From positions 1 to 15,518 of the forward strand of contig PEWQ01000204.1 in the NCBI GenBank assembly GCA_002780065.1: DNA of 15,518 nucleotides. The letters are read 5' to 3'. Every line of letters begins with the position of its first letter. The first letter of the stretch is position 1. Below are positions 1 to 13,404 of the stretch, in pieces. Below the pieces are notes generated by a model that was given only the letters and a program-made list of their open reading frames with translations, did not search any database and had not been told where the DNA came from. The position numbers and the translations under genes are program-made. This DNA comes from Candidatus Hydrogenedentes bacterium CG07_land_8_20_14_0_80_42_17 (lineage in GTDB: Bacteria; UBA8481).

Positions 1-150
1 TTTCAATTTGTACTTTTCAATTTGCACTTTCCAATTTGCACTTTCCAATTTGCACTTTCCAATTTGCACTTTTCAATTTGTACTTTTCAATTTGCACTTT
101 CCAATTTGCAATTTTCAATTTGCAATTTGTAATTTGCAATTTGTAATTTC
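1..150. repeat. 14-bp tandem repeat with a 7-bp sub-period
   Basis: Positions 1-126 are nine consecutive 14-bp units of the form TTYCAATTTGYACT, where the last two bases become AT in units eight and nine. From about 119 to 147 the array collapses to a 7-bp period that alternates TTGCAAT and TTGTAAT. Each 14-mer is itself two related heptamers (TTTCAAT and TTGCACT), so the array looks like a heptamer that was duplicated and then amplified as a dimer. It lies beyond the 3' end of the Maf gene array and starts at the window edge, so its full length is unknown. No ORF is evident in it. Its function is unknown; replication slippage is the likely origin. Confidence 0.93.
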
Positions 151-212: not shown

Positions 213-1808
213 TTATAATAGCCTAATAATCGAATGCCTGACCCCATCCAGCTCTTCCTTCGACTTTACTGCTGATTCCCACTTGAGCATGAACTCTAAA
301 TCTTCTTCGCCTACATCGAAATCACAGTTTCTCTTATCGATGTTTTGAATTTTAGAAAGATTTCGTTTCGGATTTTTTTTCAAATCTCGAATCGCATCTT
401 CCAATTTCATCTCGTTTGCGCCGAAAATTGATGCTCCGCCCTCAGTAGCATTAATCACATTCACTCTACTTTTTTTAATCTCTCTTTGAAACCACTCCAG
501 CCATCTCGACATGATTATATTTGTCTCTGCTTCTCCGCCACCCCAGCCAAGCACTCGCAATGTTTCGCCCTTTTCTCTACTCGATTCTATTCGCTCCAAT
601 GTAGAAAATCTTGACACTGTATCTGCTCTCAGAAAGCCTTTCGTGTGAGTATTATTTCCGAACGCCATATCCATTCCCACTAAAATTATTTTATCCACCT
701 GCATCTTTCTCAAAAGATCGAATCCGATCGTCGAAACGCTTCCCGAAATTAACAGTGAACCGAATTCTATTTTCAATCTCTTTTCGAGCCATTTTTGAAT
801 AGGATGCCCGTAAGAAGCGGTAAAACGGCTTTTAAACATTTTCGGAATTCTAGGATCAACAACAGGTACCATCACAAGTGAAACCTCATCAGGAATTTTT
901 CTTATTCCATCAAAATCCTTTACATTCTCAGCTGTCGCATCAACTGCGATAACAATGTCAGGAACTATTCCGTAAGCAAGCAGAGTTCTATATGCCGAAT
1001 CGACGGCAACTATGTATGCGCTTTCTTGCGCCGCTATTAGCTTATCAACATTTTTATCAAGCGACGGACCTGCTCCAACAAGAATTCCGACTGTTCCTCT
1101 TCCCTTTCCAAATAAACTCGATACCGGAGCACTATCGAGCATTGCCGGAATATTTGCGATAATGTTTTTTCTCCAGAGATCAGTAAATGTTGATAGTGTC
1201 ACTCGATTTCGCTCACTCGTAATTTTTAAAATGCTCCATTCTTCCTCGAATTGTCTTTCGAATTCCAAATCTATTCCAAATGTCGGATGTCGAATTACAG
1301 AGTAAGGCGGCAATACAACAAGAGAAGCTGACTTATCCGTATTGAAGTCATAATTTAATTTCAAAGCAGAAACAGCCTTTGCCGCATCGGTTCCTAAATA
1401 AAATTCAACTCGTTTATCCAAAATCACTCTGCGCATGTCAAAAAGAGAAAGCATTAAAGCGAATATCGCAAGAGTAGGTTCAACGCAGACAATGCGTTCA
1501 ATATTTTTTCGAGCCTGCGCGGGTTTCAACAAATATCCCAGCCCACAGCCTTTCAAAATAACCAATCGAATCTTTTCGTTTAGCGAAGCAATTGCATTCT
1601 TTGCTTCGAGTCTGGGATCGACTTTATTTTCCAAAGGACGGTGAGGATTCACATTAGTTTGGAGTAAAAACGGCCAGCCGGAATCTGATTTTGCAACAGC
1701 GATTCCTTCTATATTGAAATTAGTTTGAGAAATTATTCGAGCTAAATCAGGTTTGACATGAAATAGAGTTTCAAGATTTAGCGCCAGATAATTTTTATTC
1801 TCAGTCAA
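213..1808 (-). CDS. Maf/DUF115 family glycosyltransferase-like protein, paralogue A
   Basis: A 531-residue member of the motility-associated-factor family (MAF_flag10/DUF115, related to MptE). Family members are implicated in transferring nonulosonic sugars (pseudaminic or legionaminic acid) to flagellin in the cytoplasm; the acceptor here is unknown. An N-terminal Rossmann-like part carries KGCGLGY near residues 86-92. The central domain has GAGPSLDKN (245-253), a paired-Asp segment (AVDSAYR with D270, then PDIVIAVDA with D284 and D290), GSVSTIGFDLL (356-366) and LVGMDMAF (376-383). The C-terminal part has NATEGGASI (453-461). The start is TTG, sharing TTGA with the stop of the upstream paralogue (4-base overlap, translational coupling). 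No earlier in-frame ATG appears near the N-terminus. This is the last gene of the operon. Family assignment is firm; sugar and target are inference. Confidence 0.88.
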   Translation of the reverse strand: MTENKNYLALNLETLFHVKPDLARIISQTNFNIEGIAVAKSDSGWPFLLQTNVNPHRPLENKVDPRLEAKNAIASLNEKIRLVILKGCGLGYLLKPAQARKNIERIVCVEPTLAIFALMLSLFDMRRVILDKRVEFYLGTDAAKAVSALKLNYDFNTDKSASLVVLPPYSVIRHPTFGIDLEFERQFEEEWSILKITSERNRVTLSTFTDLWRKNIIANIPAMLDSAPVSSLFGKGRGTVGILVGAGPSLDKNVDKLIAAQESAYIVAVDSAYRTLLAYGIVPDIVIAVDATAENVKDFDGIRKIPDEVSLVMVPVVDPRIPKMFKSRFTASYGHPIQKWLEKRLKIEFGSLLISGSVSTIGFDLLRKMQVDKIILVGMDMAFGNNTHTKGFLRADTVSRFSTLERIESSREKGETLRVLGWGGGEAETNIIMSRWLEWFQREIKKSRVNVINATEGGASIFGANEMKLEDAIRDLKKNPKRNLSKIQNIDKRNCDFDVGEEDLEFMLKWESAVKSKEELDGVRHSIIRLL

Positions 1809-3520
1809 TGTTCCAAGCCCTCTCCGACTCGAATAAGAAACTCTATAGCAGAAATAAGTCCGCTCTCAATCAAACTCTTTCTTTCCGATTCAGAAAAATC
1901 TTTACTGCCGATAAATGCCGGCAAAGCCAGCCATTTAGCCATAGGACACTTTTCAAGAATTTCATCGGGCTTTCCACTCAATTTTTTTGCCCGCTCAATC
2001 AAATTCGAAAATCGTTTTTCCCAGCCGTGATTTCCAAGTGGTCGAGTTGATTTCATTCGAGCGCGCAGGCTTTCAACATCAAACCGCTCCGAGCCGCAAA
2101 GTTCTGCGATGTCGCGAAGTTTCATCGGAATCATGCCATTCTTCTTCGCTCCGCCCTCGGTTGCATCGATAACCTCAAGCCCTTTTGCAAAACCTCGTTC
2201 TATCGTCAATTCGAACCAGCCTAAATATTCCCTCATAGTCGAGTTCGTTTGAACTTTTGTTCCGTCCCATGCCTCGACAAAAACCTCGTCGCCTGCGTGC
2301 AACTTGAATTCCTGAGACTCTCTCGAACTGAATCTTGAAATCATTTCTGTCATATCATCTTCATAAGCTACGCCGGCGACATGCGTTTTCTTTCCGGTAA
2401 ACGCAAGATCCTGCCCCGCAAAGATCACTCGCTTCGCCTTCATGATTCCTGCCAATGCAAACGCATTTGTCGAGACCGAACCTCCGCTCTGCCACGAAGG
2501 TAAAAATTCTCTTCCGATAATCTCCAAAATTAAATTGTCTAAAGGAAACGATAATGGTAAAGGTTTGCCATCCAAATCCAGCGAAAAGTTAATACATCTC
2601 AAAAATGCTTTCGGGCCTTTGAATGCTTGAACGATAGCAGGCGCCGAAATCGTATCGGCTATAAGAATTGAATTCAGCATCTCTTCGCTCAGTCCCCGAA
2701 CGTCCTTCGCGTTATGTTCATTCGCATCAACAGCAACAGCAATATCCGGCATAATTCCCGCGCGATCTAGTCTTCGCAATGCAGTATCTACTGCAATGAT
2801 CGCGGCTTTCCCTCGAAAAAGTTTTAAGTAATTGATATTTTTTTCCAATGAAGGTCCGGCGCATACTATTACTGCTGTTTTGTCTTTTAGAATTCCTTCC
2901 AAAAAAGACGCTTCCGGAGAATTTATCCACTCAGACATATTTTTTCGAACTGTTTTTGTCCACAAAGGAAGTTGATAAGAGTATGAAAGCGCATTTAGAG
3001 AAACCTCACGCTGAACCTTCAATGCCGTTGTCACTATTGAATGCGCCCATTTGTCATTCAGCGAGGCGTATAAAGGAACTAGCGCAGGTTTGATTCTAAG
3101 ATGCCGAAATGGATCGAATGCATTGCGGAGCGCTGACATTGTATCAAACCCATCTTCATCCAGAAGCAGAGTCACACCTGAAAGTTGAGAGGTCAGTTCC
3201 ACTTTATCCAAATACGCTTTCAACATAGATGCGTCGCGTTCGACAACGACAACAGGACGGCACTTCAAAGCAGAAAGAATTGCGGGAGAAAATCCCAGAA
3301 TCAGCGGTAGATCAGAAGATTCGAATTTCTGATTTTCAATCCAGCGTTTCGCTTCCGTTACCGGTGAATATCTCGACTCGAGCCATTGCCGATCTGAATT
3401 GCGGACTGCTGTCGGAAATCCATCCCGCGAATATTCAATGGTGTACAAATCTTCAGACAGCGAAATCTGTTTTACAAATTCAGACCGATGCGAAAAAATG
3501 TTAAGGTTCTGATTTAACAT
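1805..3520 (-). CDS. Maf/DUF115 family glycosyltransferase-like protein, paralogue B
   Basis: A 571-residue Maf/DUF115 protein, the longest of the four. The N-terminal part has the family's SRDGFPTAV and ESRYSPVTEAKR segments. Its nucleotide-binding-like loop is degraded (LGFSPA near residue 75, where paralogue C has LGTGLGY). The central domain is well conserved: CAGPSLEKN (220-228), AVDTALRR with D245, MPDIAVAVDA with D259 and D265, GGSVSTNAF (346-354) and AGQDLAF (368-374). DATEGGAKK (452-460) and IPMKLRDI (464-471) match the corresponding C-terminal motif of paralogue A, making A and B the more similar pair. The ATG start overlaps the stop of paralogue C by 20 bp, and only a weak GAGA lies just upstream, so coupling is likely. 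The role is inferred from the family: a cytoplasmic sugar transferase acting on an exported protein such as flagellin. Confidence 0.88.
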   Translation of the reverse strand: MLNQNLNIFSHRSEFVKQISLSEDLYTIEYSRDGFPTAVRNSDRQWLESRYSPVTEAKRWIENQKFESSDLPLILGFSPAILSALKCRPVVVVERDASMLKAYLDKVELTSQLSGVTLLLDEDGFDTMSALRNAFDPFRHLRIKPALVPLYASLNDKWAHSIVTTALKVQREVSLNALSYSYQLPLWTKTVRKNMSEWINSPEASFLEGILKDKTAVIVCAGPSLEKNINYLKLFRGKAAIIAVDTALRRLDRAGIMPDIAVAVDANEHNAKDVRGLSEEMLNSILIADTISAPAIVQAFKGPKAFLRCINFSLDLDGKPLPLSFPLDNLILEIIGREFLPSWQSGGSVSTNAFALAGIMKAKRVIFAGQDLAFTGKKTHVAGVAYEDDMTEMISRFSSRESQEFKLHAGDEVFVEAWDGTKVQTNSTMREYLGWFELTIERGFAKGLEVIDATEGGAKKNGMIPMKLRDIAELCGSERFDVESLRARMKSTRPLGNHGWEKRFSNLIERAKKLSGKPDEILEKCPMAKWLALPAFIGSKDFSESERKSLIESGLISAIEFLIRVGEGLEH

Positions 3521-5048
3521 TCTCTGCCGATCCGCTAATCACTTCGTCAAGTATTCTATCTGCCGAACGCAGTTTATCAAAAAGCTCATTCAAAAGTTTT
3601 GCCGACAGCTCTTCTCGCTGAGACACTACAGCATAAGGTCGAATGATAGGATCGAAAAAGCCGGAAAGCTCACGCAAAGCTGTCGCATCTCCATTCATCG
3701 CAAATTGAAGGGCTATTTTCTCCATCTTAAAAGCCTCAATCAAAAAACGTGAATCGACCGGATGAAAATTCGGGCGATAAAATTCCGGCCTTGCAGTCGA
3801 AATAATCTTTTTCAGTTCTGCTCGATCGATGACAGGAACATCTTTCAGCAATCCAAAATCAGCAGTTCGAAAAACCGGTCTCGATGTTTCATAAATCTCC
3901 CATTTCATCCACTGAGCATATTGAGCAAGCTGAGATTCAGTTTCAAATCCGTCGCGCTGAATTTGATTCTGCCTGTTCAATGACTCAATGGAAAAGAATC
4001 TGCTTTGAATGAGGTCTGTGAAGTGTTCGTAGGCAGTTCCTGAACTATGGCGTCTGCCGTGCCTATGCGCAAAGTCCGCACCAACCAGAATTATTTTTTC
4101 GGCTGTCATTCTTCTTGCCAGATCGAAAGCAAAAGTAGTCACTGAACCGCCCGACTTCAATCTTGCAGTTCTTCTTCCGAGCGCAATATCGAACCATGAA
4201 AAATGCGGACCATCCAGCGAAAGTATAACCGATTTCTTTGCGAGCTTCCAAAGTTCAGGCGGGATTACAGGAGCTCCCAAAAGTAAATCAGGCTGAGCGC
4301 CTTCAAAATGCGCGAGCGTCATCTTCTGAGCATCAACTGCAAACACTGCATCAACTCGAATTCCTGCCTTCACAAGAATCGGATAAGCGGTATCGACAGC
4401 AAAGCGCAGTCCTCCTTCTCCATCTGCAAATAAATCGAGATTATCGGAAAGTGTAGGACCTGCCGCAAAAATGAAAACCGGAGTTTTGGAAAATGCGCCG
4501 AACCACCCTGATACGTCGGGAAGCTCTGCCCACTCACGATAATTGCGAACCGAATTTTCCCACCAAAGCGGTCCGAAACGCACCATCGAATTAAGCCCTT
4601 CAATCTGCATCTCTGCAACTTTACCGATCATCTCTGTAATCTCGGAATAATGCTTATCATCCAGAACAGAGAGCCGCGAAATATATTTAATGCAGGTTGC
4701 GGCAGAAGCATCGATGCACCGGGTTATTGCTTCAAAATTGCTTTCTCGGTTCTTACCTACTACAAAAAAAATCCGTTCCGATTCCGATATCTGTCTGTTT
4801 TCCATCATGAGCCTGTAAATATCAGGATTCGATTCTACCGCTAGAATCTTTGTGTTAGGCAAAATTTTAAGTGCCTCTGTAATTGTGTAGCCGAGTCCTG
4901 TCCCCAGAATAACAAGAACGGCAGGATTATCACCTGCAACAGCAGAAATTTCCCTTTGAGCTTCCTTGACGGGATCGTATTTCGAATGAAGATATCTTTC
5001 TCCGATAACTAATGTCGGCGCTCCGCTTTTCGATTCAACGATCTTCAT
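3501..5048 (-). CDS. Maf/DUF115 family glycosyltransferase-like protein, paralogue C
   Basis: A 515-residue Maf/DUF115 protein. I place the start at the ATG at 5048, because it has GGAG six bases upstream and because the protein then begins directly at the family segment MKIVESKSGAPTLV. The frame stays open to an ATG at 5120, but those extra 24 residues look unlike the paralogues and would overlap the upstream gene by 86 bp; with the chosen start the overlap is 14 bp. The N-terminal part has an intact LGTGLGY loop (48-54). The central domain has AAGPTLSDN (195-203), FAVDTAYP with D219, RVDAVFAVDA with D233 and D239, GSVTTFAF (301-308) and LVGADFAHRHG (321-331). The C-terminal ATEGG motif of paralogues A and B is replaced by RTADFGLL (394-401). 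Function is inferred from family: probable sugar transfer to a protein acceptor. Confidence 0.87.
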   Translation of the reverse strand: MKIVESKSGAPTLVIGERYLHSKYDPVKEAQREISAVAGDNPAVLVILGTGLGYTITEALKILPNTKILAVESNPDIYRLMMENRQISESERIFFVVGKNRESNFEAITRCIDASAATCIKYISRLSVLDDKHYSEITEMIGKVAEMQIEGLNSMVRFGPLWWENSVRNYREWAELPDVSGWFGAFSKTPVFIFAAGPTLSDNLDLFADGEGGLRFAVDTAYPILVKAGIRVDAVFAVDAQKMTLAHFEGAQPDLLLGAPVIPPELWKLAKKSVILSLDGPHFSWFDIALGRRTARLKSGGSVTTFAFDLARRMTAEKIILVGADFAHRHGRRHSSGTAYEHFTDLIQSRFFSIESLNRQNQIQRDGFETESQLAQYAQWMKWEIYETSRPVFRTADFGLLKDVPVIDRAELKKIISTARPEFYRPNFHPVDSRFLIEAFKMEKIALQFAMNGDATALRELSGFFDPIIRPYAVVSQREELSAKLLNELFDKLRSADRILDEVISGSAENVKSEP

Positions 5049-6504
5049 ACAACTCTCCATTCTTCCGCATTCTCGTACCTGATGGAAGCAAGATATTTGA
5101 CCTGATAAATGACACCTCATCTGCTTTTACATACTCTATCCCGTCGAGCTCAACAGCATCTTTAGAAAGCTGAAAAAAAGTAATATGAGAATATTTTTTT
5201 GCGAGCCTCTGAATTGCTCTGGCGTAAATCATAAGGTTCTTGCGTGTAGGTATAGATTCTCCTCCCACACTTTTCGCAAAGCTTCGCTCACCTTTTGAAC
5301 AGAGAAAACGTTCACCCAAAATTCCAAAGTTTTCCAATGTTGAAAATCTGCCGAGCACTGCCGCACGCGATAATTCCATAGATGTGCCTTTGACATGAGT
5401 TTTCATCATTGGTTCGGCAAAATCAGCTCCTGCTAAAAAAATCCGCTTTGCGCCCATCAGTACGGCAAGTCCAACTGCGCTTGTTATCACACTTCCTCCT
5501 GCAGGCAATTCTCCAATTTCTTCTCGAAGAGTCTTCATGCGCTTTCCACCATCGCCTTCGGCAAATGCAGAAATTATTTGAGGAACCGCATTCAGAGTAT
5601 GAGGAGAGACTGTCGGAAAAACAACAGCAGGCGGAATCACAGAGTTGTCCGGAAAAATAAAATGCCGTGCAATCTCCTCTTGCGGATCTGTCGTCACAGC
5701 AAGATGCGGAGTAATTCCCAAAAAGTGTAGAGGCAAAAGAGCTCGGCTTGTCGCAATCCAATCAGCATTATTTCCTATTATTTTTGCGATCTTTTCCAGA
5801 GACGGCCCTCCGCCCGCTATAACGGCATCCGACCCGTCCAGCAAATTTCTCAGTTCTGAAACTCCTGGAGCCGACAGGAATCTTTCGCGATTTATCGATT
5901 TATTTTTTTTGAGCAAGTCCTCTTGATGAAGCGAAGATTTCATTCGAACCTCTAAATCGGAAAAAAGTTCCTTCAATGCTGAAAGCTTTTCCGGCCACTC
6001 CACAGATGGATTGATAATAAATCTGTCAGGTTCATAATTTTTTAAAAGCTCCAATATGCCGGCATTAAATTCATTTGGAGTATTGCAAATAATTATTTGT
6101 TTATTTTCCTGTATTTTAATTTTGCCCGCATTTTTTTTTGGATCAAAAGCTAAAGTCACAACTCTGCTGTCGTTTAAAAAATTCCCGGCAGTTTCATTGT
6201 CTGCAACTGTTTCCAATATTTCGGCAACAGGTTCGACAACTGCAAGTCTCCCCTCTTTATCGATCACATCCAGAATTGCTCTTGGAAGCTCTCCAGCGCC
6301 CATTCCCACCAACAGCACAGTTTCTCCCTTCATCACTCCGTTCTTTTCAACGCGCCTTCTTGCGTCAACTTCAGGAGAATACCTGCTTTCGCACCATCTT
6401 CCGTCCGACCGAACTAAAGAAGGTCTGCCGCTTTTTGCAGACGCAATTTTCCAACCGTTGGAAACTGAATCATTCTGATTAGTTTCAACTTTCTGCAATT
6501 TCAT
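5035..6504 (-). CDS. Maf/DUF115 family protein, divergent paralogue D
   Basis: A 489-residue Maf/DUF115 protein, the shortest and most divergent of the four and the first in the array. The N-terminal segments AKSGRPSLV and ESRYSPEVDARR match the family, followed by a Rossmann-like LLVGMGAGELPRA (64-76). The central domain keeps GGGPSLEK (231-238), GGSVITSAV (336-344) and LAGADFAEP (357-365). Two acidic positions conserved in A, B and C are altered: S253 replaces the first Asp, and H267 stands where the others have the Asp of the PD or VD pair; only D273 remains. The C-terminal ATEGG motif is absent. The ATG overlaps the PBP stop (ATGA), with AGGAG immediately upstream. The coding strand contains A8 and A9 runs. 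It may be an enzymatically altered or regulatory member; which is unknown. Confidence 0.85.
   Translation of the reverse strand: MKLQKVETNQNDSVSNGWKIASAKSGRPSLVRSDGRWCESRYSPEVDARRRVEKNGVMKGETVLLVGMGAGELPRAILDVIDKEGRLAVVEPVAEILETVADNETAGNFLNDSRVVTLAFDPKKNAGKIKIQENKQIIICNTPNEFNAGILELLKNYEPDRFIINPSVEWPEKLSALKELFSDLEVRMKSSLHQEDLLKKNKSINRERFLSAPGVSELRNLLDGSDAVIAGGGPSLEKIAKIIGNNADWIATSRALLPLHFLGITPHLAVTTDPQEEIARHFIFPDNSVIPPAVVFPTVSPHTLNAVPQIISAFAEGDGGKRMKTLREEIGELPAGGSVITSAVGLAVLMGAKRIFLAGADFAEPMMKTHVKGTSMELSRAAVLGRFSTLENFGILGERFLCSKGERSFAKSVGGESIPTRKNLMIYARAIQRLAKKYSHITFFQLSKDAVELDGIEYVKADEVSFIRSNILLPSGTRMRKNGELYEDR
5055..5058 (-). promoter_or_regulatory. Shine-Dalgarno that decides the start of Maf paralogue C
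   Basis: Minus-strand GGAG at 5058-5055 is followed by a six-base spacer (AGTTGT) and then ATG at 5048. The site lies inside the last codons of paralogue D, which fits translational coupling. The alternative ATG at 5060 has only a GGAAG one base away, and the ATG at 5120 has no clear site. Confidence 0.65.
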
Positions 6505-8459
6505 TCTCCTACATCTTCTGCATAATGTTCAATGCCGCCCGGCGGCTGAAACTCGACTTCCACAACAGAATCTAGCGGTAATAATTCTCCGCTATTAGGC
6601 GTCTGTTTGACGGCTACTCCGCTTCCTAACGGTTTAAATGAAAGTGGAAGAGTTGAAATTAGTTCATGCGCCTCTCTGAGAGTGAGCCCAATTAAGTCAG
6701 GTATAACTACCTTACCTTCGCGAACTGCGCCACTCTGTCGCGGAGCCTGAACCGTAGCAGGCAAAACTGAGGAAGTATCCGGTGCGCTCGAAGAAATGAT
6801 ATGAAGATATCTCAAAGCCTCTGTCGCTATCCAACCGAAAATTGGAGCCGCAACTGTGCCGCCGTAATATCCTTTCGAAGGGTCCGGTTCTCGGACAACT
6901 ATCGCCATAGCAAGTACAGGCGCCTCAGACGGAACCCACCCGATAAAAACTGCGTTGTAATGTCCTTTCATGTATCCGCCGGTCGGTCCGGAAATCTGTC
7001 CTGTTCCTGTCTTGCCGCTTACATTAAATAATTTTACTGCCGCGAGCTGACCGGTTCCATGACTCACAACACCCTCCATAATATTTCCCATGAGTCTGGA
7101 AATTCCTGACGGTATTACCTGAGTTCTAACATGCGGCGGATAAGTGCGAATCGCCTTTCCGCCCGAATTATCGATGCTTCTTATCAATCTCGGTTGCATT
7201 AGTCTTCCACCGTTCGCCATCGCTCCGGTTGCCATCGCAAGCTGAATTGCAGTGACAGAAATTTCCTGACCTATAGCTAATGTCGAAAGTGAAAGCTTTG
7301 ACCAGTCTTTAACAGGTCGTAAAACCCCCTCTTCTTCACCCTGTAATTCTATTCCGGTTCGCTCTCCAAATCCAAAACTGCGAAGCCCATGATACATTAC
7401 ATTCGGGTCCAACCTTTGAGCAACAAGCATTGCGGTGACATTGCACGATGCTTCAATTGCGCGTCGATAATCGAGTGTGCCGTGAGCTTTATGACACTTG
7501 ATTGAAAAGCCTGCGACGCGCAATACTCCAGGGCAATAAAATGTGTCTTCCGGTTTTACAACTCCTTGCCCCAAGGCAAGCGCTCCGGAAAAAACTTTGA
7601 ATGTAGATCCCGGTTCGAAAAGATCGGTGATCGCTCTGTTTCTTCGCGCATCAGCTTCATATTTCGATGCAAAATTCGGATCATACGACGGATAGTTCGC
7701 CAATCCGAGAATTTCTCCGGTAGCAGGATCGATTACGACTCCGGACGCGCTCTTTGCTCCGTAAGCTTCAGCATTCAGTTTCAAAGCCGTTTCCAAAAAT
7801 GACTGAATCGTGAGATCAATAGTCAGATGAATTGAATGTCCGTCAAATCTGCGATACTTTAATTCTCCGCGCGGAACAAGATTTCCCATCGGATCAAGAA
7901 CAAAATTTCCTTCGATCTCCGGCCCTTTCAGTTCATCGTCCATTGCTCGCTCTATTCCTTCAAGCCCTGCGTCATCCAATCCAACAAAACCTAAAATATG
8001 CGCCGCAGTTGAATCATGAGGGTAATAACGCTGAAACTCAGTTTGAAAGAAGAGCCCATGAATATTCAATAGCGCAATAGAATCAGCAATATCATCGTTA
8101 AGTTTCCGAGCAAGCCAAACGAATTCATTTGGTCTAGACAGCTTGTCCGCAAGTATTTCTTCAGAAATGCCCAATAGTTCAGATAGAGTTTTAGAAACTT
8201 TTTTCCTTTCGAGAGGGTCAGTAAACTTTTGTGGATTTGCCGCGAGCGAACGAATTTTAACCGAGACTGCAAGTTCTCTTCCTCTTCGATCATAAATGGT
8301 TCCGCGCTGACGTTCAAAACGTTTCGCTGTCTCGTTTTGGTGCATCGAAATTTCTTGAAACTTGCTTCTCTCAAGAACTTGAATCTGAAACAATCTCCCG
8401 ATTACAGCGATAAATACTGCCATTGTAAAAAAAAGAATTAAATACACTCTGAATTTCAT
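6501..8459 (-). CDS. ftsI: class B penicillin-binding protein (FtsI/PBP2-type transpeptidase) with C-terminal PASTA domain
   Basis: A 652-residue cell-wall transpeptidase that crosslinks peptidoglycan stem peptides on the outer face of the inner membrane. It has a single N-terminal membrane anchor (about residues 5-24), a dimerisation/pedestal region starting at RGTIYDRRGRELA (52-64), and a transpeptidase domain with all three active-site motifs: SxxK at S285-K288 (GSTFK), SCN at 338-340 and KTGTG at 483-487. One PASTA domain follows (about 582-637, beginning VVIPDLIGLTLREA). This architecture is FtsI/SpoVD-like; which of these it serves as cannot be settled from sequence, so the gene symbol is by family. 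The start lies 5 bp after the lepB stop, and the stop overlaps the first Maf start by 4 bp. No ftsL, mraW or mur genes flank it, so it is outside a classical dcw cluster. Confidence 0.94.
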   Translation of the reverse strand: MKFRVYLILFFTMAVFIAVIGRLFQIQVLERSKFQEISMHQNETAKRFERQRGTIYDRRGRELAVSVKIRSLAANPQKFTDPLERKKVSKTLSELLGISEEILADKLSRPNEFVWLARKLNDDIADSIALLNIHGLFFQTEFQRYYPHDSTAAHILGFVGLDDAGLEGIERAMDDELKGPEIEGNFVLDPMGNLVPRGELKYRRFDGHSIHLTIDLTIQSFLETALKLNAEAYGAKSASGVVIDPATGEILGLANYPSYDPNFASKYEADARRNRAITDLFEPGSTFKVFSGALALGQGVVKPEDTFYCPGVLRVAGFSIKCHKAHGTLDYRRAIEASCNVTAMLVAQRLDPNVMYHGLRSFGFGERTGIELQGEEEGVLRPVKDWSKLSLSTLAIGQEISVTAIQLAMATGAMANGGRLMQPRLIRSIDNSGGKAIRTYPPHVRTQVIPSGISRLMGNIMEGVVSHGTGQLAAVKLFNVSGKTGTGQISGPTGGYMKGHYNAVFIGWVPSEAPVLAMAIVVREPDPSKGYYGGTVAAPIFGWIATEALRYLHIISSSAPDTSSVLPATVQAPRQSGAVREGKVVIPDLIGLTLREAHELISTLPLSFKPLGSGVAVKQTPNSGELLPLDSVVEVEFQPPGGIEHYAEDVGE

Positions 8460-8464
8460 TTAAC

Positions 8465-9226
8465 TTAAATCCAATCTACTCGTTTTATCGGCCAGTATAT
8501 CATAATTGCTCTTGCTTCAATGCCTGATTCATCAACAAAACCAAAATATCTGGAATCAGCACTTTCCAATCTATTGTCTCCAAGACAATAATACTTTCCT
8601 TTTGGAACTACAATAGATCGTATTCCGATTCTGTCGTCTTTGAGCTGAACAATATTCGAAGAGGTTATATCTTTGATTGCAGAGAGCGGGATCGATGAAG
8701 GGAGATTTTTTTCAAGCGGTTTTCCGTCAATAAAAACCTGTTCGGATTTGAATCTCAATTTTTTTCCGTCAAGTATCAAAGCAAAGTTCATAGAGGCATC
8801 ATCTGAACGCGGTTCGTCCATGTACAGATAAGGTTCTTTCAGTTCTATTCCATTGATAATAGCTTTGCCATTTCGCATTGCAATCCTATCTCCACCTATT
8901 CCTATAACTCTCTTTACATACTCACGATGCGGCTCAAAATTTGATATGCCTGCGGAATGAGAAAGAGATTTGTCGAGATTGAAAATAACTATTTCACCTC
9001 TAGAAGGTCTTACGAAACGAATAGAAATTTTTTCCGCAACAATATGGTCGAACGGTTCGAGCGTGGCAATCATGGAACCGGACGGAATAAAATATGCCTG
9101 AATGACAAAGGCTTTGATTAAAAGAGCGAGAAAAGCAGATAAGATAACCGTCTCTAGAGCTTCTCCAAGAGGAGTCTGCCTAAACTCATTAAATCGCTGA
9201 GATATAATAAAATTATTCTGACGCAC
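8465..9226 (-). CDS. lepB: signal peptidase I
   Basis: A 253-residue membrane serine protease that removes signal peptides from exported proteins on the outer side of the inner membrane. One N-terminal membrane segment (about 26-46) precedes PSGSMIATL, which contains the nucleophile S51. The general base is K105 in YVKRVIGIGGD. The conserved GDNRLESADSRYFG block is at 216-229. A lineage-specific insert of about 60 residues lies between the Lys block and this last block. The start is GTG; the frame has no ATG between the upstream in-frame stop and this codon, an ATG five bases upstream is out of frame, and no clear ribosome site is visible. It is the first gene of the train that continues into the PBP and Maf genes. 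Confidence 0.95.
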   Translation of the reverse strand: MRQNNFIISQRFNEFRQTPLGEALETVILSAFLALLIKAFVIQAYFIPSGSMIATLEPFDHIVAEKISIRFVRPSRGEIVIFNLDKSLSHSAGISNFEPHREYVKRVIGIGGDRIAMRNGKAIINGIELKEPYLYMDEPRSDDASMNFALILDGKKLRFKSEQVFIDGKPLEKNLPSSIPLSAIKDITSSNIVQLKDDRIGIRSIVVPKGKYYCLGDNRLESADSRYFGFVDESGIEARAIMIYWPIKRVDWI

Positions 9227-12978: not shown

Positions 12979-13404
12979 TTATTCGAGTGAAACCGTATCG
13001 CCGGCAGTGTTTAACTCGGTTGAGTTTAACTCGGTTGAGTTTAACTCGGTTGAATTTATTTTATTCTGTAAATGCTCGCCCGGCCAGCGACCGGAAAAAA
13101 TTCTAATCCCCGCAAAAACTAGAGCCCAAAGCAATATTAAATACAATCCGGCAATTGTTATCTTTCGGTAAGTATTATGAATAGTTACATTTTTCCATAC
13201 GTCTTCTTCTTCTTTTTGAGGCGCAATCAATTCTTTAAGCGATTTCCATTCATTTGTTTTTGGGTCAAGAAATGCATCGCGTGAAATATCATCAGTAAGC
13301 TCTCTCTCTCTTAACCATGCCTTGAGTTTCTTCTCCGTAAAAGGTCCGTATTCTTTTCCTTCATACCTTATTCGGTAAAGAGGAGATTCTGATTCGATAG
13401 TCAC
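12979..13404 (-). CDS. GYF_2-domain single-pass membrane protein
   Basis: A 141-residue protein of unknown function. Residues 8-60 resemble the GYF_2 domain ([18 protein letters not shown], a conserved W30, then NEWKSLKEL), a small module thought to mediate protein-protein contact. A hydrophobic segment at about 81-103 ([19 protein letters not shown]) predicts one membrane pass, so the domain is probably cytoplasmic. The C-terminal tail holds three perfect NSTEL repeats (117-131). The start is GTG, overlapping the sucD stop as GTGA, which indicates translational coupling to sucD. No functional link between such proteins and succinyl-CoA synthetase is known to me; it may be a passenger or a membrane-tethering partner. 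Confidence 0.8.
13010..13054. repeat. three 15-bp tandem repeats inside the GYF_2 gene
   Basis: Three copies of TTTAACTCGGTTGAG are contiguous at 13010-13024, 13025-13039 and 13040-13054; the third ends GAA. The unit is a multiple of three and encodes the pentapeptide NSTEL on the minus strand, so copy-number change would alter tail length without a frameshift. Confidence 0.95.

Follow-up and report, generated by a model that had tools for sequence, protein, structure and literature searches.

Four Maf-family genes behind an ftsI-like gene, and the recurrence of this gene order in other bacterial lineages

The window, a stretch of 15,518 nucleotides that makes up the complete contig C66 of a MAG (2.39 Mb, 207 contigs, 87% complete), carries four consecutive genes for Maf/DUF115 proteins directly behind genes of the cell wall, and no flagellar gene was found in this 15.5-kb contig. 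The locus raises two questions: whether its proteins act on a flagellum, and why they are encoded next to ftsI. We consider it likely that the bacterium is flagellated and that the four array genes encode glycosyltransferases of the Maf family, which would most probably O-glycosylate several flagellins with nonulosonic acids. Enzymes of this kind are known; it is their recurring position beside ftsI that is new.

Gene organization and protein family

The four genes lie on the minus strand and encode M1 (213..1808, 531 aa, with a TTG start), M2 (1805..3520, 571 aa), M3 (3501..5048, 515 aa, in which GPTL replaces GPSL), and M4 (5035..6504, 489 aa), the most divergent paralogue and the first Maf of the operon. 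The overlaps of 4 bp (M1/M2), 20 bp (M2/M3), and 14 bp (M3/M4) agree with the initial annotation. The M3 frame stays open up to position 5120; the ATG at 5048 was taken as the start because it has the better ribosome-binding site and the alignment with the orthologue begins there. The start of M4 overlaps by 4 bp (6501-6504, AGGAGAATGA) the stop of a gene for an ftsI/spoVD-like class B PBP with a PASTA domain (6501..8459, minus strand; Transpeptidase, E 1.5e-70; PBP_dimer; PASTA), and lepB, encoding signal peptidase I (8465..9226, minus strand; Peptidase_S26, E 3e-43), precedes the PBP gene by 5 bp. From this overlap and spacing we read the locus as a unit, lepB-ftsI-M4-M3-M2-M1, that may be expressed as a single transcript with the Mafs as its distal genes; a scan for promoters and terminators gave chance-level matches only.

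The best NCBIfam model for the PBP was spoVD, although the score was under the equivalog cut-off of that model. Two class B PBPs were found at E<=1e-35 in the 87% complete genome, one on C66 and one on C114, and since the latter sits in a cluster with mreBCD and rodA, we take the window PBP as FtsI, within the limits of an incomplete genome.

A 14-bp tandem repeat (1..142; TRF, 10.1 copies, 92% match) ends the contig right after M1. The assembly was probably interrupted by this repeat, and our view of the neighbourhood on that side therefore stops at M1. A similar repeat is found on contig C155 (L061 8588-8836), so the repeat may be dispersed and may break assemblies. A separate 15-bp tandem repeat (13009-13058) lies within the gene for a GYF-like protein (13404-12979) and gives an NSTEL repeat near the C-terminus of this protein.

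All four proteins matched PF01973 (MptE-like/DUF115), with E values of 4e-33 (M1), 5e-37 (M2), 1e-25 (M3), and 3e-21 (M4) and scores of 76.5-127.7 bits against a cut-off of 34.6 bits; the Maf N-terminal model PF20157 (Maf_flag10_N) was over its cut-off in M1 only (E 2e-5). A profile of the array matched the Maf structure 5MU5 over about 300 residues (E 1.5e-18). AlphaFold models of M1 and M4 (mean pLDDT 74.7 and 72.1) aligned to 5MU5 starting in its N-terminal part, with Z 27.1 over 438 residues (rmsd 5.4) and Z 24.9 over 390 residues (rmsd 9.1), respectively. 5MU5 is the Maf of Magnetospirillum magneticum AMB-1, in which a Rossmann-like N-terminal domain likewise precedes a central, sialyltransferase-like Maf_flag10 domain, although its chain of 666 aa is longer than the 489-571 aa of M1-M4. 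On these matches the array is Maf in family and, as judged from the M1 and M4 models, in fold.

The central domain of M1 and M4 also resembles the sialyltransferases Cst-I and Cst-II, a pterin pyrophosphokinase (8SD5), and SteA, an actinobacterial division regulator (Z 10.8-12). The fold is common to DUF115, 8SD5, and SteA and cannot by itself give an activity; the glycosyltransferase activity of M1-M4 is thus a prediction from family membership. An identity with the archaeal MptE/HPPK type was rejected, as 8SD5 is a short single-domain protein whereas M1-M4 have 489-571 residues with an additional N-terminal domain and match 5MU5 far better. They also fall short of the PseD model: NF050051 needs >670 bits, and M1, M2, and M3 reached 96.7, 68, and 40.5 bits, with no score for M4. 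The SteA model NF040608 gave a weak score, far under its cut-off, for M5 only, the fifth Maf of the genome. A sixth DUF115 protein, M6 (L038:1018-2046, on contig C124; 342 aa), does not have the N-terminal domain, and its gene sits in a sugar and glycosyltransferase gene cluster.

Flagellar genes and conservation of the paralogues

The initial annotation had found no flagellar genes, which is true of the contig and not of the genome. Seven Flagellin_N matches were detected, five of which are full flagellins on five contigs, and a FliS-like gene lies directly behind M5. The genome also has three strong NeuB-type genes of nonulosonic acid (NulO) synthesis, one of them clustered with a CMP-sugar synthetase gene. 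The flagellin, FliS, and NeuB genes are all located on contigs other than C66, and the idea of a bacterium with no flagellum was rejected on their account. A Maf array can thus lie outside a flagellar island even when the cell is flagellated and carries NulO genes. A gene for a 523-aa protein (L058:9245-10816, contig C6) adjoins a flagellin gene and is followed by a second GT9 gene; the protein combines an N-terminal stretch that resembles Maf (YSRYNPKVEAER, matching the Maf profile with E 2e-9) with a GT9 glycosyltransferase domain. Each of the two genomes of the order has, directly upstream of M5, a gene fusion of an ATP-grasp/L-amino-acid ligase with an FMN dehydrogenase (L037:3096-5333 and L035:6119-8545).

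Among 386 genomes sampled across the domain, flagellin was present in 65 of the 68 with DUF115 over the cut-off and in 85 of the 318 without (Fisher p 9e-28, in a count that ignores phylogeny). The three Maf genomes without flagellin (G085, G104, and G134) indicate that flagellin is not necessarily the substrate throughout the Maf family.

The age of the copies was assessed with G001, the only same-order relative compared, which belongs to a different family and was the sole match when genome contigs were scanned with the M1 profile. As had been suggested, the gene order was looked for in this relative, and M3-M2-M1 was found with order and strand kept. The cluster has recG upstream and a GNAT gene and carAB downstream, with no flagellar gene beside it; the M4 orthologue stands alone on C31 of G001, and that of M5 is also away from M3-M2-M1. 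Identity between orthologues of the two genomes is 33-44% (the single comparisons of M1 and M2 gave 44-46% and 42-43%), compared with about 24-33% between paralogues. A tree built from 63 Mafs placed every one of M1-M5 next to its G001 orthologue with support of 99-100, which bears out the earlier view that the paralogues are old; the conserved order of M3-M2-M1 leads to the same conclusion. From these sequences, the copies split before the two families diverged and have been kept separate since, and a recent tandem duplication was rejected on the same pairing and low paralogue identity. Three flagellin groups are likewise common to both genomes (78, 62, and 56% identity), and this conservation of both Maf and flagellin paralogue groups favours a role on flagellin.

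The array enzymes are therefore best read, on family and genome content together, as probably ordinary flagellum decorators. They would move pseudaminic- or legionaminic-like nonulosonic acids from CMP-sugars onto serine or threonine residues of flagellin in the cytoplasm, ahead of flagellin export. The donors would come from the NeuB-type pathways and the acceptors would be the flagellins, both encoded in trans elsewhere in the genome, and the four old, separately kept copies would probably differ in their acceptor or site preferences.

A four-Maf array of this kind was initially thought not to have been described, which is not the case. In Campylobacter jejuni, the four genes maf2-maf5 form an operon that lies downstream of flaAB, and there, too, four consecutive paralogues in one operon occur in a flagellated bacterium with NulO pathways (PMC13130089); its copies show both redundancy and different roles (PMC13130089). 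The C. jejuni operon, however, lies in a flagellar modification locus (PMC13130089), whereas the window array follows lepB-ftsI on a contig with no flagellar gene. In Clostridium butyricum CDC_51208, the flagellar region encodes three divergent Mafs (<40% identical) and three non-homologous flagellins, and it was suggested that these Mafs use different sites or donors (PMC13317340); they are in a flagellar cluster (PMC13317340), in contrast to the overlapping array behind ftsI. PMC13317340 also cites work on Maf paralogues that differ in site specificity. That multi-Maf arrays are unique to the window can also be dismissed from our own survey, described below, in which tandem Mafs occurred as three in G147 and as two in G030, G177, G312, and G284.

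Recurrence of the ftsI-Maf linkage

Prompted by ftsI beside M4, we surveyed the positions of the closest ftsI homologues in 71 DUF115-bearing genomes, counting as linked any ftsI-like gene upstream of a Maf gene on the same strand and within 2 kb. Linkage was found in nine of the 71 genomes, from six families, whereas 0.07 would be expected by random placement. When the window genome, the source of the test, was left out, five families remained (Poisson P about 1e-8, under a null of uniform placement and independent families and with ftsI as the one neighbour gene surveyed). The other linked families are all outside the phylum of the window and share only the domain with it. The linkage to a cell-wall gene noticed at the outset thus extends to other lineages, where an ftsI-like PBP gene again precedes Maf.

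The arrangements were PBP-Maf-Maf-Maf with FliS 1.2 kb before the PBP gene (G147), lepA-PBP-Maf-Maf (G030 and G177), PBP-DUF502-Maf (G133 and G270), PBP-Maf (G304), and PBP-DUF502-DUF502-Maf-radical SAM (G018 and G165). Two further cases were left out of the count: PBP-Maf cut by the contig end (G312) and DUF502-Maf-Maf at a contig start (G284). DUF502 was encoded between ftsI and Maf in two of the linked families. More broadly, three families had genes for DUF502 membrane proteins either in the interval from ftsI to Maf or immediately ahead of Maf (L113:13293-13985, L110:9068-9748, L108:8954-10221, and L087:63-689). Matches to both flagellin and NeuB were present in 11 of 11 genomes, namely the nine counted together with G312 and G284. 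The idea that the first Mafs of the linked sets form one clade was rejected: the tree, made with a quick method and containing many long branches, needs six changes, of which at least three are forced by starred branches. Within the order, G001 keeps argJ-lepB-ftsI on C53 with no Maf behind, which shows that the linkage has been gained or lost even at this level. No description of an ftsI-maf or DUF502-maf linkage was found in the open-access literature.

Possible reasons for the linkage

A neighbour that recurs in unrelated bacteria suggests that flagellum decoration and cell division may be linked. One tentative explanation, which extends our main reading, is joint production of the enzymes and the septal transpeptidase, which would couple the assembly of filaments to every division. 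The number of linked genomes and families, the PBP-Maf pair in a tenth genome (G312), the scatter of the linked Mafs over more than one clade, and the flagellin and NeuB matches in all of them are consistent with it. A parallel comes from Caulobacter, in which flagellin glycosylation is cell-cycle regulated, with CtrA controlling flmG and neuB, and polar flagella, as the authors point out, must be built once per division (PMC7591256). FlmG resembles the proposed scheme in that one cytoplasmic pathway serves several flagellins with pseudaminic acid at a pre-divisional time; the timing there, however, runs through CtrA and not through an ftsI operon, and the passages of PMC7591256 consulted do not describe FlmG as belonging to DUF115/Maf. 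Against a tie to division stand the Maf-free argJ-lepB-ftsI of G001, whose M3-M2-M1 adjoins recG, and the 62 of 71 genomes with no linkage; the linkage may also be shared by ancestry among the other families, which the Poisson P takes as independent. The more specific proposal, that operon structure wires flagellin glycosylation to septation in several unrelated lineages through co-expression of maf with FtsI and often DUF502, we regard as rather doubtful; if true, new filaments would be decorated once per division. Timing of the enzymes to the pre-divisional cell is a prediction, as are the donor, the acceptor, and the division of labour among the copies.

The linkage could also be neutral, the Mafs having landed several times behind a constitutive essential gene that gives steady expression. 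Other non-flagellar contexts, such as recG in G001, and the variation by family of the genes upstream of ftsI (lepB, lepA, fliS, and others) agree with this, but hundreds of essential genes would serve equally well, and yet it is repeatedly this one partner, in one order and on one strand, that is found, and DUF502 also recurs between ftsI and Maf; we think a neutral origin somewhat unlikely. It is considerably less probable that the ftsI-linked Mafs act on a substrate of the envelope or divisome (perhaps an exported protein, or a polymer at the cell surface) instead of flagellin. The neighbours lepB and ftsI, the DUF502 membrane proteins in other families, the SteA-like central fold, and the short M6 protein in its sugar and glycosyltransferase cluster point in that direction; however, flagellin is present in every linked genome, the window's own genome has FliS next to M5, and 5MU5 outscores the other fold matches by a wide margin. 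Returning to glycosylation of flagellin, which is often essential, the recurrent ftsI-(DUF502)-maf order would offer a simple and testable route for its timing, and would give a first functional lead for DUF502.
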